A stretch of DNA of 64,000 nt from Methanosarcina thermophila TM-1 (lineage in GTDB: Archaea; Halobacteriota; Methanosarcinia; Methanosarcinales; Methanosarcinaceae), in the NCBI RefSeq assembly GCF_000969885.1, contig NZ_CP009501.1, forward strand, positions 1,178,001 to 1,242,000, given 5' to 3'. Position 1 is the stretch's first letter, and the number at the start of each line of letters is the position of its first letter. The notes under the pieces are model-generated. The model searched no databases, was not told where the DNA came from, and worked only from the letters and a program-made list of their open reading frames with translations. A program made the position numbers and the translations under genes. Positions 10,318 through 17,888 of the stretch are shown here, one piece after another.

Positions 10318-13182
10318 TCATTTAAGTTTGCTTCTTTTCATTAGCAGGGAATTGGTAGTCACCGAGACTGAGCTCAAAGCCATAAAGGCAGCAGCAAGTT
10401 CTGGTGTAATCAATATTCGATTAAAAACAGGATAAAGAATCCCGGCTGCAATAGGAATACCTATCGAATTATATCCAAAAGCCCAGAACAGGTTCTGTTT
10501 GATCTTGCGGATAGTAAGCCGGCTCAGCTTAAGAGCCACGACCACATCTCTGGGGTCGTTCTTTATAAGTACGATTTCTGCGGACTCCATTGCTACATCA
10601 GTGCCCGCTCCCATTGCAATTCCCACATCAGACTGGATCAATGCAGGAGCGTCATTAATGCCGTCACCTACCATCCCGACAAGCTTTCCTTCATCCTGAA
10701 GTTTTTTAATTTCATTTGCCTTATCCTCAGGAAGCACCTCAGCAAGCACTCTTGAGATACCTAATTGTCTGGATATCGCACCTGCTGTAATGGCATTGTC
10801 TCCTGTAATCATAGCTACCTCGATTCCCATTTTTTTCAGGGTCTCAACTGCTTCCCTGGAGGTCTCCTTAAGGGTATCGGCAACTGCAACAATGCCCATG
10901 ATTTTTTTCTCATACGCCACGAGCATCGCAGTTTTTCCATCTTCCTCAAATGCACGCATTTCAGGCTCAAGGATCTCAAAGGAGATCCCGTACTCTTCCA
11001 TAAGTTTACGTGTGCCGAGCAGGATTTGCTTTCCCTCAAAATAAGCTTCAACACCCTTTCCCGGAATTGAACGGAAATTTTCTGCTTTTCCGGGGCTGAT
11101 CTTCATCTCCTCAGCTCCCTTTACAATAGCTTCTCCCAGGGGATGTTCCGATCCCTTTTCAGCCGTTGCAGCTATAAAAAGCACCTGTTCCTTTTCATTA
11201 CCAGGGGCTGCAAACACATCTGTGAGTTTTGGAGTGCCTTCCGTAAGAGTTCCGGTTTTGTCGAAAACTATAGTATCAAGCTTATGTGCCCTCTCGAGGG
11301 CTTCCCCACCTTTTATGAGGATCCCGTTTTCCGCTCCCCGACCAGTGCCCACCATGATGGCTGCAGGAGTTGCAAGCCCAACCGCGCATGGGCATGAGAT
11401 CACAAGGATTGTAATGCCTATAAGCAGGGAAAAGAGGAAGGGGCTGATTCCTCCCATAGATGTGGATACATCAAAGCGCCAGTAGCCTACGAAGAACCAG
11501 AAGAAAAAGGCGAGAAGGGTAAGAATATGCACCGCTATTATGAAGTTGCCAGCAAAGACATCCGCAACCCTCTGGATTGGGGCTTTAGAGGTCTGAGTAT
11601 TTTCAACAAGCCTGATTATCTGGGCAAGAGCGGTATCAGCCCCAACTTTAGTAGCCCGGAAATTAAAAGTTCCTGTTTTATTTAGCGTAGCCCCGATAAC
11701 CGTGCTGCCTGGGCTTTTCTCTACAGGAATACTCTCACCGGTAAGCATTGACTCATCCACTGCCGAACTGCCTTCAACTACAACCCCGTCAACCGGAATT
11801 TTCTCTCCTGGGCGAACAACAACAATGTCGCCAACCACGACATCTTCTACAGGAACCTCTTTCTCCACACCATCCACAAGAATTCGGGAGGTCTTTGCCC
11901 TGAGTCCCATCAATTTTCTTATTGCTTCCGAAGTCCGGCTCCTTGCCCTGGCTTCGAGATACCTACCAAGCACGATGAAAAGTATAAGGAGAGCTACCGT
12001 ATCGTAATAGAGAGTATCATACCCGGGTCCGAGATCAAAAAATGTTGCTGCTACGCTGATTATGTAGGCAGACCCTGTCCCTCCGGCAATCAGCAGATCC
12101 ATATCGGTTACGCCGTGCCTGAAACCTTTAAAAGTCCCGACAAAAAACTGCCTGCCAGGGAAGATAAGGATGAGGGTTGACAATATAAAAAGCACTACTG
12201 GGTCGAAGAGGAAGGAAGGAATAAACCCCATAAGAGAAGGAAACAGCATACCCATATTCCCGATAGCAACCGGAATTCCAAGCACAGCAGCAATAATCAG
12301 GTTATTTTTCTGCTTTTGGATCTCAGCCTCCCTTGATATCTGCTCTCTGTCTTCATATTCCACAGCTTCAGTCCGGACTGATGCCCCATAACCAATTCTC
12401 CGTACCGCAGCAATAATCTCTCTTACGGAAATCTGGGCTGAGTCGAATTCCACAACTGCCTTTTCAAGTGGGAAATTTACTGAAGCCGAAATCACGCCGT
12501 CGGTCTTATTAAGAACTCTCTCGATATTTGCAGCGCAGGAGGCGCAACTCATACCTTCGAGGTTAAGAGTTACCGTATCCTTCTCTACCTTATATCCGAT
12601 TGATTCGATAGTATCTTCAATCTCCTTAGGAGAGATAAGCGAGGGATCAAAACCGACTTTTGCCCTTCCAAGTTCCAGATTGACAACTACTGAACTCACT
12701 CCTGCTTTCTTTTTTAATACTCTCTCAATATTTGCGACGCAGGCTGAGCAGGTCATGCCAGAAACTCCTAGCGTGATTTCTTTTAAACCGGTTTTCGGCT
12801 CTGAGACTTGCGAGGCTTCTCCTGCTGGCAGCTCACAGGTTAGATCCTGGGGACAGGCTTGAGGAGCCTCTTCTGATCCCTCTGGTTCCGTCAAGGTCCT
12901 TTCCTCAGCCTCTGTTTCTGTCCCCGCCGCTTCTGCTGCCCCAAAAAATTCCGCCTGTGATTCTTCCTGTGTTTTTTCGCGTTCTGTTGAGTATCCCGCC
13001 TTCCGGATAGCTGCCTTTATGTCTTCCAGGGTTATTTTTTCAGGATCAAAGCTAAATGTGGCGTATTCGGATTCGAGATTTACATCAACGGATTCTATTC
13101 CCTCAAGAGAAGAAATGGCATCCGCTACTCTTTTCTGGCAGTGACCACAGGTCATGCCGTAAACTCCAATGGTAACTTCCAT
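10318..13182 (-). CDS. copA: Cu(I)-exporting P1B-type ATPase with three HMA domains
   Basis: This 954-aa pump exports Cu(I) from the cytoplasm. It has three N-terminal heavy-metal-associated domains, with GMTCGHC (about 9-15), GMTCSAC (about 143-149) and GMSCASC (about 211-217); an acidic Glu/Ala-rich linker separates the first from the second. Eight membrane helices follow, with the CPC metal site in [14 protein letters not shown], the phosphorylated aspartate in [11 protein letters not shown], the SEHPLG motif and [10 protein letters not shown]. The last helices contain FGYNSIG and [14 protein letters not shown], the pattern of Cu(I)-selective P1B-1 pumps. I prefer the ATG at 13182 to a TTG one codon earlier. 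It sits 41 bases after a small HMA gene. Confidence 0.96.
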
Positions 13183-13223
13183 CAAATGTGCCGCCTGTTC
13201 AGTTTTTCAGGATTACCCGGCAT

Positions 13224-13451
13224 TCAGTGAACTCTTCTGGGCTCTTCTATGGTTTTGTAGCCAGCTTTAAGCAGGGTCATCTGTATGACATATGCATCAG
13301 TTACCCGGCTGTCATAGGCTACATTTACGGTTCTTTCAGGAATATTGATATCTACTCTGGAAACCCCATTAATAGAGGTAATGAGCTTTGTGACCATGTC
13401 CTTGCAGTACCTGCATACAAGGTCGTCTACTATGAATGTTGTCTCCCCGAT
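13224..13451 (-). CDS. Small HMA-domain protein with no standard start codon (apparent AUC)
   Basis: The frame encodes a divergent HMA fold: FIVDDLVCRYC with a C-x2-C metal site, then SINGVSRVDINIPERTVNVAY and a C-terminal LLKAGYKTIEEPRRVH. An in-frame TAG at 13482-13484 bounds the frame upstream, and no ATG, GTG or TTG lies between that stop and the metal site. ATC at 13451 is seven bases after a GGGGGG run and lines up with the initiator Met of the 68-aa CopZ next door, giving 75 aa. Alternatively, an ATG at 13471 would join this frame if the G6 run (13459-13464) held one more base. The gene precedes copA by 41 bases and probably delivers or senses copper. It could be a pseudogene. Confidence 0.6.
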   Translation of the reverse strand: MGETTFIVDDLVCRYCKDMVTKLITSINGVSRVDINIPERTVNVAYDSRVTDAYVIQMTLLKAGYKTIEEPRRVH

Positions 13452-13571: not shown

Positions 13572-13778
13572 TCACAGAGGTTCATATCCGGTTTCTCTGA
13601 TTGCAGCCTTGACATCTTCGAGATTTACCTTTCCTTCTTCATATTCAATAGTTACCTGTTTAGTCTGAAGATTTACGTCCGCCCTCTTCACACCCTCTAC
13701 GGCTTCAACGGCTTTTTTAACCCTCAACTGGCAATGCATGCAGGACATGCCTTCGACTTTTATGATTTCCTGAGCCAT
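13572..13778 (-). CDS. copZ: CopZ-like copper chaperone
   Basis: This 68-aa protein is one ferredoxin-like HMA domain: IIKVEGMSCMHCQLRVKK carries the C-x2-C metal site (about residues 13-16), and the protein ends AAIRETGYEPL. Proteins of this kind carry Cu(I) in the cytosol and pass it to the HMA domains of CopA, encoded about 390 bases downstream. A good ribosome binding site (ACGGAG) precedes the ATG. A second, equally long HMA protein ending GYEPL is encoded at 15803-16009. The sequence alone does not prove metal specificity, but Cu(I) is the best inference from the CopA neighbour. Confidence 0.9.
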   Translation of the reverse strand: MAQEIIKVEGMSCMHCQLRVKKAVEAVEGVKRADVNLQTKQVTIEYEEGKVNLEDVKAAIRETGYEPL

Positions 13779-14390: not shown

Positions 14391-15356
14391 TCAAGCCGGG
14401 CAGCAGCTTTCATTATTGCCCGTGTAATTTTTCATCATACAGGGCATCATAGCAGCATTGTCTGCATGATCTTTCATCATACAGGGCATCATAGTTGCGT
14501 TCTCTGAAAGATTCCCTTTCATACAGTGCATCATACAACACATCATAGTTTTGTTCATTGAATCGTTGCCCATCATAGAATTATTTCCCATCATGCAATG
14601 CATGCAGTGGTGCATACAGTAGGGCATCTTGATATCATTCATTGAGTCATTATCCATCATACAGGGCATCATGGTGTCATTCATTGAGTCGTTATCCATC
14701 ATACAGGGCATCGTAGTGTCATTCATTGAGTCGTTATCCATCATACAGGGCATCACGGTCTTGTTCATTGAATCGGCACACATCATTGAATTATTTCCCA
14801 TCATGCAATGCATGCAGTGGTGCATACAGTAGAGCATCTTGATGTCCTTCATTGAGTAGTTACCCATCATACAGGGCATCATGGTGTCATTCATTGAGTC
14901 ATTATCCATCATACAGGGCATCGTAGTGTCATTCATTGAGTCGTTATCCATCATACAGGGCATCACGGTCTTGTTGCAATAATCCTTTTCACAATCCATG
15001 GTGGTATTGTTGCCATAATCTGTTTCGCAGCCCATCAAGCAACGATTGTATGCCTGTTCACAGTTATATACGCAACAATCATAGCCCTCTTTACAGTCCA
15101 TAGTATCATTGCAGTAGTCTTCTCCACAATCCAATAAACAACAAGTGTAGTTTTCTACACATTTCATGGTAACATTGTTGCAGTAATCTTTTTCACAATC
15201 CATGGTGGTATTGTTGGAGTATTCCTTACAAACACAGACCTGTCCGCTGGATTTTCCTTTATCTGCAGCTCCTGCAACCGGCTGCACCAGTCCGGCTATT
15301 ATCAATCCTATAGATACCAGCAGTAACACTGACTTTGTGATTCCAGACTTAACCAT
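14391..15356 (-). CDS. Secreted Met/Cys-rich repeat protein, putative copper-binding
   Basis: This 321-aa protein has a signal peptide (about 1-30, SVLLLVSIGLIIAGLV, probable cleavage after AGA). By my count the mature part holds about 60 Met and 37 Cys in about 290 residues. The first half is Cys-rich (TTMDCEKDYC, CNDTMDCKEGYDCC). The second half repeats a 14-residue unit MPCMMDNDSMNDTT and twice carries CMHHCMHCMMGNNSMM; the PCMM core occurs eight times. There is no C-terminal anchor. I chose ATG 15356, preceded by GGGGGGAG, over an in-frame start nine codons upstream. Met- and Cys-rich motifs typically bind Cu(I), and the gene lies between two CopZ-like genes and copA, so I infer extracellular copper binding or storage. 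I do not recognise the family. Confidence 0.8.
   Translation of the reverse strand: MVKSGITKSVLLLVSIGLIIAGLVQPVAGAADKGKSSGQVCVCKEYSNNTTMDCEKDYCNNVTMKCVENYTCCLLDCGEDYCNDTMDCKEGYDCCVYNCEQAYNRCLMGCETDYGNNTTMDCEKDYCNKTVMPCMMDNDSMNDTTMPCMMDNDSMNDTMMPCMMGNYSMKDIKMLYCMHHCMHCMMGNNSMMCADSMNKTVMPCMMDNDSMNDTTMPCMMDNDSMNDTMMPCMMDNDSMNDIKMPYCMHHCMHCMMGNNSMMGNDSMNKTMMCCMMHCMKGNLSENATMMPCMMKDHADNAAMMPCMMKNYTGNNESCCPA
14581..15000 (-). repeat. 42-bp units within a 210-bp tandem duplication
   Basis: The Met/Cys gene contains 42-bp (14-codon) units encoding MPCMMDNDSMNDT-type segments, nested in a larger duplication of 210 bp (14581-14790 and 14791-15000). The repeated segments are close to identical in DNA, so expansion looks recent. 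Confidence 0.8.
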
Positions 15357-15400: not shown

Positions 15401-15454
15401 CCAGCACGCTTAGCATGCCGGTTAATATTTATGTACCAAGTAAATATAAAAGCA
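15401..15454 (-). promoter_or_regulatory. Promoter with palindromic operator candidate for the Met/Cys-rich gene
   Basis: On the minus strand the TATA-like GCTTTTATATTTAC (15441-15454) places transcription start near 15416-15421. Exactly there lies an imperfect palindrome at 15401-15421 (CCGGCATGCT and AGCGTGCTGG, 8 of 10 positions paired, one spacer base). The location suits a repressor or activator site, plausibly metal-responsive. Confidence 0.5.
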
Positions 15455-15802
15455 TTATTATATTAGAAATAATTCCTTCTAAGTTCCCCTTATATGTGCT
15501 TTTGTAGCAAGCGATCTTTTTAGATTTATTACGCTACTGATAATGAAACTAACATTGTGTTTAAAAAATTATAAGTCCTGACAACATAAAACATAACAGA
15601 TGATAAACTTAGTAAACTGGAGCTAGATTTGCAACCCTTAATTAATACAATAAAAGAAATGATTAAAAAATACTAATATTATTGAAAAGGAGAGATGTAA
15701 CTGACTGCGTGTGCGTGTAGAATATTGGAGTAAATCCATTTATTGTCTGCACCTTGAGATCAGTTAAGCACATCAGAAAATAAAGAAAAGAGAGAAACAG
15801 AA

Positions 15803-16009
15803 TTATAAAGGCTCGTACCCTGCTTCCCGCACGGCAGCCTTGATTTCTTCCAGGTCGGTTCTGGTCTCCTCGAATTCCACAACAGCTTCTTTTGTTTTCG
15901 GATTTACATCAACCACAGTTACACCCTGGACGGAAGCAATAGTTCTCCCAACCCTTAAGATGCAGTGATTACACTCTATCCCCTCAATTTTTAAGGTCTC
16001 CTGTGTCAG
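15803..16009 (-). CDS. Second CopZ-like HMA protein with apparent CUG start
   Basis: The frame encodes a 68-residue HMA domain with GIECNHCILRVGR (C-x2-C) and the ending AAVREAGYEPL, the same length as and clearly homologous to the CopZ at 13572-13778. An in-frame TAA lies just upstream, and the only start-like codon before the metal site is CTG at 16009. It aligns with the CopZ initiator Met and follows a GGGGGG run by eight bases. A UUG nearby is out of frame. So either CUG initiates or the gene has lost its start. It is upstream of the Met/Cys-rich gene and downstream of a 13-14-bp repeat cluster. Confidence 0.65.
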   Translation of the reverse strand: MTQETLKIEGIECNHCILRVGRTIASVQGVTVVDVNPKTKEAVVEFEETRTDLEEIKAAVREAGYEPL

Positions 16010-16232: not shown

Positions 16233-17888
16233 TCAATCTCCCCGAATTGTAGCAACAAGGACTATCAAGATAGATGCTCCGATTCCAGCCAACCCAACCC
16301 AGGAAAAAGTACCACCATTTAACAGGATATACGCTGAGATAATAAGCAGGACAGCAAGGTAGAGTTCTTTCGAAAAAACCGTTTTCCTGCTTTCTTCCTG
16401 CTTTAAAGAAAGGAATCTATCCCCCATTTCTTCCAATTTATCGGCAACTTCCCGAATTGTTGCCCTTATTTCAGCCTTTTCGTCCACAGGTTCAGTGGAA
16501 AATTCGATGTGGATAGCATGCCCTTTCGGCTCATTAAGCTTTTTATAAGCTTCCATGAGAACAGGAATTGCAATAGTTTTAATATTGTATCTCGGATCCA
16601 GTTCCAGACAGACCCCTTCTATAAGCAGGATCGCTCTCTGCAGGGTTGAAAATTCCCCGGGCAGCCGGATATTATATTTCAGACCGAGTTTTGCGTAATT
16701 GTCGCTTTGTCTGCCTTCAAGCCCATAGTTCTGGTTTGCAATCAGGCTGTCCATATCTTTCCTGAGCCTGCGGATGTCAACATCCCGTGCATTCGCACCC
16801 CCAATTTTCAGGAAACCCTGGGTTGCCCCTTCCACGTCCCTGTTGTGGATGGCATAGTAAAACTCCAGCATGTGCTTCTGAAGCTCTTTATCAATACTGC
16901 CCACAGCCCCGAAATCGATAAAAGCTATGGTATCGTTTTCCTGAACCAGCATATTGCCCCCATGAGGGTCAGCATGGTAAAAGCCGTCGATATAGACCTG
17001 CTTTAGGTAACTTCTGGTAATGGTACGTGTATATTCCGATTTCTTGCTTTGAGGCACAGGCATATTAATTATGTCTTTAATCTGGGTTCCGTGGATGTAT
17101 TCCATTGTAAGGACATTGGCTGAACAATAATCCGGATAAACTTTGGGTACAGATACATTTTTCACGTTCTTGAAATTGTCTTCAAAACGCCGCATATTAA
17201 TGGCTTCAGTTCTCAGGTCGACCTCGCGGGTAAGCATCTCCCGAATCTCCAGTAAGAAGGCATCAATATCGAAATTGCCCCCCAATCCAAGCACCTTTCG
17301 CATTACAGGCTTGAAATCATCCAGAATAGAGAGGTCGATGTTTATAATGTCAATGAGGTTTGGGCGGAGAATCTTGACGGCAACCGGTTTGCCTTTCAAA
17401 ATCCCTTTGTAGACCTGCGCAATCGAGCCGCTAGCAATCGGTTCCGGGTCAAAGCTGTCAAAGATTTCAATAAAAGCTTTTGCTTTTCTTTCCCGTGAAG
17501 CCTTAAGCTCCTCTTCCGTCTTTTTCCGATTTCGCTCCGCAAGCGTCTGGTATTCACAAACACAGGCAAGATCAAGAGATTCAGCCATCTCTTCAAAAGG
17601 TAGCGGCTTAACCTTGTCCTGAAGGTTTGCCATTTCTATGACATAAGGCTGTGGAACAAGATCAGGTCGCTTGCTCATTGTCTGTCCAATTTTGATGAAA
17701 GTCGGCCCAAGCTCTTCGAAAGCCTGTCTGAGCTTTACAGCCGTATTTCTGATCTCGAGATCAAAAGCACAGGCACAATCGGGATTCGAAATGTAATTGG
17801 TGTGCAAATCCCGGTAAAGTTCAGGAATAAGATTGTACTTTAAAAAAACTCTGGTAACCTCAAGGTACCGCTTTGTTTTTTCCAGCAT
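16233..17888 (-). CDS. ABC1/UbiB family atypical kinase-like protein
   Basis: This 551-aa protein belongs to the ABC1 (AarF/UbiB/COQ8) family. It carries TFIKIGQTMSKRPDLVP, the GSIAQVYKG ATP loop, KPVAVKILRP with the conserved Lys, HADPHGGNML and FIDFGAVG. Two hydrophobic helices at the C-terminus (about 500-520 and 526-546) anchor it in the membrane. Bacterial and mitochondrial relatives support quinone synthesis by an ATPase activity; in a methanogen the partner may be methanophenazine or another isoprenoid lipid, which is inference. It lies about 220 bases from the second HMA gene and is probably unrelated to copper. Confidence 0.9.
   Translation of the reverse strand: MLEKTKRYLEVTRVFLKYNLIPELYRDLHTNYISNPDCACAFDLEIRNTAVKLRQAFEELGPTFIKIGQTMSKRPDLVPQPYVIEMANLQDKVKPLPFEEMAESLDLACVCEYQTLAERNRKKTEEELKASRERKAKAFIEIFDSFDPEPIASGSIAQVYKGILKGKPVAVKILRPNLIDIINIDLSILDDFKPVMRKVLGLGGNFDIDAFLLEIREMLTREVDLRTEAINMRRFEDNFKNVKNVSVPKVYPDYCSANVLTMEYIHGTQIKDIINMPVPQSKKSEYTRTITRSYLKQVYIDGFYHADPHGGNMLVQENDTIAFIDFGAVGSIDKELQKHMLEFYYAIHNRDVEGATQGFLKIGGANARDVDIRRLRKDMDSLIANQNYGLEGRQSDNYAKLGLKYNIRLPGEFSTLQRAILLIEGVCLELDPRYNIKTIAIPVLMEAYKKLNEPKGHAIHIEFSTEPVDEKAEIRATIREVADKLEEMGDRFLSLKQEESRKTVFSKELYLAVLLIISAYILLNGGTFSWVGLAGIGASILIVLVATIRGD

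Follow-up and report, generated by a model that had tools for sequence, protein, structure and literature searches.

Little is known of how archaea handle copper outside the cell. In the window (the whole 64,000-nucleotide stretch of Methanosarcina thermophila TM-1 DNA analysed here), an ORF for a Met- and Cys-rich repeat protein with a signal-type N-terminus lies among genes for copper chaperones and a copper ATPase. This raises the question of whether the ORF is a genuine gene, to which family its product belongs and what that product might do for the cell. On the minus strand, the island runs in the order ABC1 kinase, copZa, Met/Cys gene, copZ1, copZ2 and copA:

16233..17888, minus strand: ABC1/UbiB-like kinase gene, the upstream anchor of the island (placed by synteny only)
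15803..16009, minus strand: copZa, HMA-domain copper chaperone with GIECNHC (PF00403, E 6e-16)
14391..15356, minus strand: gene for the Met/Cys/sequon-rich, predicted secreted protein of 321 aa (ORF, composition, dN/dS against the G080 orthologue)
13572..13778, minus strand: copZ1, HMA-domain copper chaperone with GMSCMHC (PF00403, E 5.6e-19)
about 13224..13451, minus strand: copZ2, divergent HMA-domain protein with DLVCRYC (PF00403, E 1.6e-8)
10318..13185, minus strand: copA, Cu+-type P1B ATPase with three N-terminal HMA domains (TIGR01511 and motifs)

The original prediction placed the Met/Cys gene between two CopZ-like genes and copA. The copper island stands, and its composition is revised: there are three CopZ-like genes, with copZa upstream of the Met/Cys gene and copZ1, copZ2 and copA downstream. 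The window CopA scores 601.6 bits against TIGR01511 (copper-translocating ATPase; cut-off 397) and carries the motifs CPC, YN and MxxSS. By established motif rules this combination denotes the Cu+ type, and judged by its motifs the window CopA is of that type. Of the 31 genomes of the genus, 29 yielded the ABC1 anchor, which in most is followed by copZ and copA genes. Because three genomes (G084, G097 and G098) keep the copper island without the Met/Cys gene, the gene is accessory within the island. It has its own promoter and lies ~600 bp from copZ1; co-transcription of the two genes is therefore not indicated.

We place the start of the Met/Cys gene at the ATG at position 15356 of the minus strand, with a Shine-Dalgarno-like GGGGGGAG 5' of it; the call of a mechanical ORF finder begins at a TTG nine codons further 5'. 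In a sister genome, the orthologue (G080, L026:7487-8344) shares 78% of its aligned positions with the window copy and differs in repeat numbers. Between the two genes, dN/dS is 0.058/0.239 over the N-terminal 135 ungapped codons and 0.045/0.332 over mature residues 31-135. Within the alignable N-terminal part, Cys is kept at 16/18 positions, Met at 7/7 and N-X-S/T at 8/8, and variation inside the kept sequons falls on the middle residue (NVT to NIT, NDT to NNT). The Met/Cys ORF is a real coding sequence under purifying selection. A frame artefact is ruled out by the dN/dS of 0.13-0.24 against G080, and the minus strand alone is open throughout. Repeat number changes rapidly between these sister genomes. 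Only in G080 are the Met/Cys gene and copZ1 separated by an additional ORF (L026:8498-8956), which reads like a carbon monoxide dehydrogenase fragment with a CooS-like N-terminus.

Two features organize the product:

15267..15356, minus strand: signal-type N-terminal segment MVKSGITKSVLLLVSIGLIIAGLVQPVAGA (common signature of the family)
14529..14975, minus strand: tandem duplication of 210 bp, made of 42-bp PCMMDNDSMNDTxM units with CMHHCMHC blocks (Tandem Repeats Finder)

After the predicted signal peptide, the protein comprises 291 residues with 60 Met (20.6%), 37 Cys, 35 Asn, 31 Asp and 8 His, in agreement with the gene coordinates and the figures of about 60 Met and 37 Cys in about 290 residues first proposed. 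The PCMM-type repeats and two CMHHCMHCMM blocks of the original prediction were likewise found: we counted eight PCMM and two CMHHCMHC motifs, together with 11 CMM and 12 MxxM. A Cys-rich part of ~100 residues comes first, followed by the 14-residue PCMMDNDSMNDTxM units and two CMHHCMHCMMGNNSMM blocks, and the central part of the gene contains 2.1 copies of the 210-bp unit with 92% matches. The single hydrophobic segment is N-terminal. It may be a cleaved signal or an uncleaved anchor, the latter option being kept because signal peptides are predicted too often in Methanosarcina (PMC4350412). The AlphaFold model of the protein is unstructured and without strands, at very low confidence (pLDDT 28), and the chain is predicted to be intrinsically unfolded.

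No family in Pfam (E<=1) or NCBIfam (E<=0.1) is matched by the protein, and a PDB sequence search returned no relative; activin-receptor matches in the PDB (E 0.16) were dismissed as Cys-composition noise. A literature search, in which subscription journals were only partly covered, found no described Met-rich copper protein of Methanosarcina. By kind, the product appears to be a Met/Cys metal-binding repeat protein, unusual in its sequon saturation and in the modular swap of its repeats.

The sequon saturation was absent from the original prediction. The protein contains 27 N-X-S/T sequons, some of them overlapping, against 3.9 +/- 1.8 (maximum 12) in 10,000 same-composition shuffles. In a ranking of 295 ORFs of at least 150 aa from the window and related loci (median 0.41 sequons per 100 aa), the window ORF is first with 8.2 and its G080 orthologue second with 7.4. 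The repeat unit amplifies this count, yet sequons are present outside the repeats too. Relatives built of other repeats contain them as well (NETMM, HSANGT, GNQTM), with 11-17 versus 3-4 expected from shuffling. The host genome, searched as one contig of 3,127,379 bases, has three STT3/AglB-type oligosaccharyltransferase genes, and N-linked surface glycoproteins and an AglB candidate have been reported for M. mazei (PMC4350412). Sequon enrichment, the STT3 genes and the N-glycoproteins of M. mazei make N-glycosylation of the Met/Cys protein likely.

The N-terminal segment also leads to relatives. A signal-segment consensus of 33 aa finds 15 loci in 14 of the 31 genomes of the genus; the window protein matches the family signal consensus ([MV]xKxGxxKxVLLL...PIAG) at E 8e-8, and the host genome has no second match to the segment at E<=10. 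The loci inspected encode Met-rich proteins, and at a stop-interrupted locus in G077 the remains of a Met-rich gene adjoin. All named contigs with relatives belong to Methanosarcina. Met makes up 13-24% and Cys 0.4-12% of the relatives, most of which contain one to four helical hairpins (CxxFWLEKAIKLHxMHLKNPxxATNESQMEMMxQMMxAYECI). The hairpin was found in 11 of the 31 genomes, and 238 genomes of the class gave no credible instance beyond Methanosarcina; at the loci inspected, hairpin-profile matches outside the genus (E about 0.005) fall in long ORFs resembling PEP synthase/PPDK. Hairpins are absent from the window protein (G000), the G080 orthologue and the G093 relative, and by this distribution among the sequences the hairpin is a common, non-universal module of the family. 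Those of the G102 relative are locally confident in AlphaFold; Foldseek against the PDB gave nothing significant for them, and Pfam no match for the hairpin relatives.

Two proteins bridge the two forms. The G095 member (L098:8826-9515, 229 aa), directly upstream of copZ1-copZ2-copA, carries a single hairpin after HCCMMGDHSANETM repeats that resemble the G080 ones, and the G088 protein (L033:8188-9219) combines ENYSMNETMMRCMM with three hairpins. Relatives with WLEKAIKLHxMHLKNP (M. spelaei L093, G095, G088) share the signal segment, promoter, island slot, Met richness and sequons with the window protein, whereas the window and G080 proteins are without hairpins and have PCMM and CMHHCMHC repeats and about 12% Cys. 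The repeats of different family members are not reliably alignable. Common descent of the window form and the hairpin relatives is nevertheless the best reading, because signal segment, promoter, genomic slot and bridge proteins all agree. The Met/Cys protein is one lineage-specific form of a Methanosarcina-restricted family without previous name. We delimit the family by three traits that the window protein has: the signal segment, Met above 12% with sequons well in excess of shuffling, and a place in the ABC1-copZa-copZ1-copZ2-copA island, from which the G093 relative departs. A search of genome contigs found no distant homologues of the window protein; a single match outside the genus (E 4e-4, 23% identity, in a 295-genome sample of the phylum) was taken as chance because it is antisense to a longer ORF resembling a hydrogenase small subunit.

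The G093 relative (L030:8957-9640) has the family signal segment, GNQTMMMP repeats and an Asp/His-rich start DDDHDEDMMDDHDED. It adjoins cysK-cysE, and the same slot in the window genome holds ArsR and a ZntA-like ATPase. Other secreted or anchored proteins rich in Met are encoded at L033:7233-7928, L029:10352-11047, L032:2013-2708 and L035:9319-10056. They combine MGPGMMxNPGYNYSYGPG repeats with a conserved MMAIYYPESKP... domain that has no Pfam match above threshold, are often found near a SHOCT protein and a TauE gene, and in some cases bear the family signal segment.

Is the family tied to copper beyond the window? Among 13 genomes with a member at a copper-island-type locus, ten carry HMA or copA genes no more than about 15 kb away from it (G000, G080, G078, G081, G088 with copZa only, G094, G095, G101, where the family gene is split across two contigs, G102 and G103). 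The original prediction named homologues lying only far from copper genes as evidence that would count against it; this is not the distribution found. In G087, G089 and G096, a search of short contigs over 3.5 to 18 kb found no HMA or copA gene; in G087 and G089 the member still occupies the place next to ABC1. Shared ancestry, and not a set of independent events, accounts for much of this linkage. Yet members sit either on the ABC1 side or, in three relatives, immediately upstream of copZ1-copZ2-copA, and this variation in placement speaks for an association that has been retained. The proposal of a candidate new copper-binding family accordingly gains from the genus-wide copper linkage and from the lack of a Pfam, NCBIfam or PDB relative; it is amended in that the arrangement first described is one form of a wider family, most other members of which carry helical repeats.

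At three loci (L031, L100 and L104, in G103, G101 and G078), the copZ1-copZ2 pair is doubled around a small block with an HxlR-like regulator, a ParA/CooC-like ATPase and a flavin-reductase-like gene, which suggests a second, inserted copper or redox module.

Upstream of the Met/Cys gene, two elements were delimited:

15439..15466, minus strand: conserved promoter element TAATATAATAA followed by TATA-like CTTTTATATT (upstream alignment)
15401..15421, minus strand: imperfect inverted repeat CCGGCATGCTAAGCGTGCTGG in the interval from the TATA-like box to the ATG (pattern scan, upstream comparison)

The promoter consensus of the relatives is TTATTATAATAA ... TTTTATRTT, and TATTATAATAA followed by TTTATRTT lines up across ten genomes about 95 to 110 nt before the ATG. 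The sequence TTATTATNATAA is present exactly in 9 of 11 family genes and in 0 of 193 control genes, the copies in the window and G080 having two mismatches. At no more than one mismatch, it is found in 13 of 22 copZ1 genes, at about -45, versus 4 of the 193 controls. TTATTATNATAA may be a copper operator common to the family and copZ1 or, alternatively, the initiator region in copZ1; its position at -45 in copZ1, the kinship of the genes and the two mismatches in the window gene keep us from deciding for the operator. The inverted repeat CCGGCATGCTAAGCGTGCTGG has a G080 counterpart, CCGGTATGCCAAGCATACTGG, with matching changes on both arms, and is a possible operator specific to the window/G080 pair. 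The CATGC inverted repeat as an operator common to the copper genes was ruled out by its absence at the copZ and copA promoters.

The copper chaperone genes show what looks like conserved non-canonical initiation. Across the window copZa and its orthologues at L026, L033, L041, L042, L047-L054 and L056, the conserved N-terminus starts with CTG in 13 of 14 genomes and with ATG in one, and the CTG is preceded by a strong GGGGGG-type ribosome-binding site. For copZ1 the start is ATT or ATA in about 9 of 21 genomes (L048, L049, L051, L053, L054, L056, L057, L097, L098) and ATG in the others. Alternative in-frame upstream TTG, GTG or ATG codons are possible for the chaperones in G088, G075 and G102. 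The apparent start of copZ2 (GGGGGTGAACATATCGGG) is without ATG, GTG or TTG and its start codon is probably ATC; with such a start, standard gene finders would shorten copZ2 beyond the CxxC metal site.

Known metal proteins offer partial parallels. Metallothioneins (Cu-thioneins) are short, unfolded, Cys-rich chains that bind several d10 metal ions. The Met/Cys protein, a small repeat chain with 12.7% Cys that is predicted to be unfolded, could likewise take up several Cu(I). Unlike them, it is predicted to be exported, has more Met than Cys, is rich in sequons and has no metallothionein match in Pfam or NCBIfam. The ectodomain of Ctr1, N-glycosylated in humans, shares extracellular Met/His motifs with it; in contrast to Ctr, the Met/Cys protein has one hydrophobic segment, no three-helix transporter and no Ctr match in Pfam. 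The proposed storage of multiple copper ions recalls the Csp copper storage proteins, and the hairpins of the relatives bear Cys, Met and His. However, Csp is a four-helix Cys-lined bundle, whereas the Met/Cys protein has no predicted fold and no Pfam match, and the hairpin relatives have neither a Pfam match nor a significant PDB fold match.

SilE of bacteria is a Met-rich exported protein of copper clusters, and both PcoC/CopC and PcoE/SilE resemble the Met/Cys protein as Met-rich exported proteins within copper gene clusters. PcoC/CopC, discussed together with the Met-rich CopA of bacteria (PMC10092412), differ in having no sequence, Pfam or PDB relation to the Met/Cys protein, for which no cupredoxin-like beta-barrel is predicted (very-low-confidence model). 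Archaeal CopA-CopZ (CopT) clusters share a CopA exporter and small metallochaperones with the window island. In the accessible part of one account, the Haloferax cluster is induced by silver, and that part mentions no exported Met/Cys protein (PMC10694973).

From these features we think it probable that the product is an exported, unfolded, N-glycosylated sponge for Cu(I) and soft metals at the cell surface, acting beside CopA efflux, and we infer that its gene would be induced by copper. CopZ proteins would hand cytosolic Cu(I) to CopA, and CopA would expel it. The Met/Cys chain, once exported, would be heavily N-glycosylated and would stay at or near the surface, either in the gap between membrane and S-layer or in released form. 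Clusters of Met, Cys and His in the chain (CMM, MxxM, CMHHCMHC) would bind several Cu(I) and probably other soft metals, e.g. Ag(I). Expelled Cu(I) would be held outside, limiting its re-entry and damage to surface proteins. Cu(I) is preferred by thioether and thiolate ligands and is dominant under anoxia. Points against a copper sponge are the accessory status of the gene, its own promoter at a distance from copZ1, the chance that the N-terminal segment is an uncleaved anchor, the low free copper of sulfidic habitats, and the position of one relative, in G093, off the copper island at cysK-cysE. More tentatively, the exported protein could be a 'glyco-metallothionein': dense N-glycans, at most one per ~11 residues, would keep its metal-loaded disordered chain soluble and surface-bound, and the family would swap PCMM/NxT repeats for Cys/Met/His hairpins behind the same signal peptide, promoter and slot.

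The predicted export would also suit a scavenging or uptake protein, chalkophore-like or Ctr-ectodomain-like, that passes scarce copper to an importer, and the extracellular Met-rich segments of Ctr1 do capture Cu(I). We nonetheless regard this as quite improbable: the island consists of an exporter and chaperones, with no importer gene recognised in it, and in a genome survey all examined Methanosarcinales counted as copper non-users lacking any known copper enzyme, with CopA the sole copper transporter recorded for archaea (PMC2147054). For copper non-users with a CopA, as the Methanosarcinales are, detoxification is a better fit than scavenging, which is the least likely of the scavenging, storage and buffering roles originally offered (PMC2147054).

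If the protein were a thiol/thioether sink at the surface that takes up Ag, Hg, Cd, Zn or oxidants, and its tie to copper secondary, this would explain the Cys-rich first half of the protein and the G093 relative at cysK-cysE, the slot of ArsR and the ZntA-like ATPase in the window genome; oxidants also react with Met and Cys. It is an unlikely account, given the linkage to a Cu+-type ATPase and CopZ in most genomes and the preference of the relatives for Met over Cys, thioethers being suited to Cu(I) and Ag(I) and not to Zn or Cd. We give least credence to a structural or adhesive, mucin-like surface glycoprotein whose Met/Cys content and copper-gene neighbours are incidental. It would agree with the high density of sequons, the low complexity, the tandem duplication and the fast change in repeat number between sister genomes, but relatives whose repeats are quite different remain high in Met, in contrast to their variable sequon density, the slot in the copper island is retained, and the alignable Cys and Met are conserved.

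Copper and silver from sludge and feeds reach the anaerobic digesters where Methanosarcina works. If the copper sponge reading is correct, this surface copper-binding family would add an extracellular layer to detoxification in Methanosarcinales, and N-glycosylation would be tied to metal homeostasis through a metal-binding repeat saturated with sequons.
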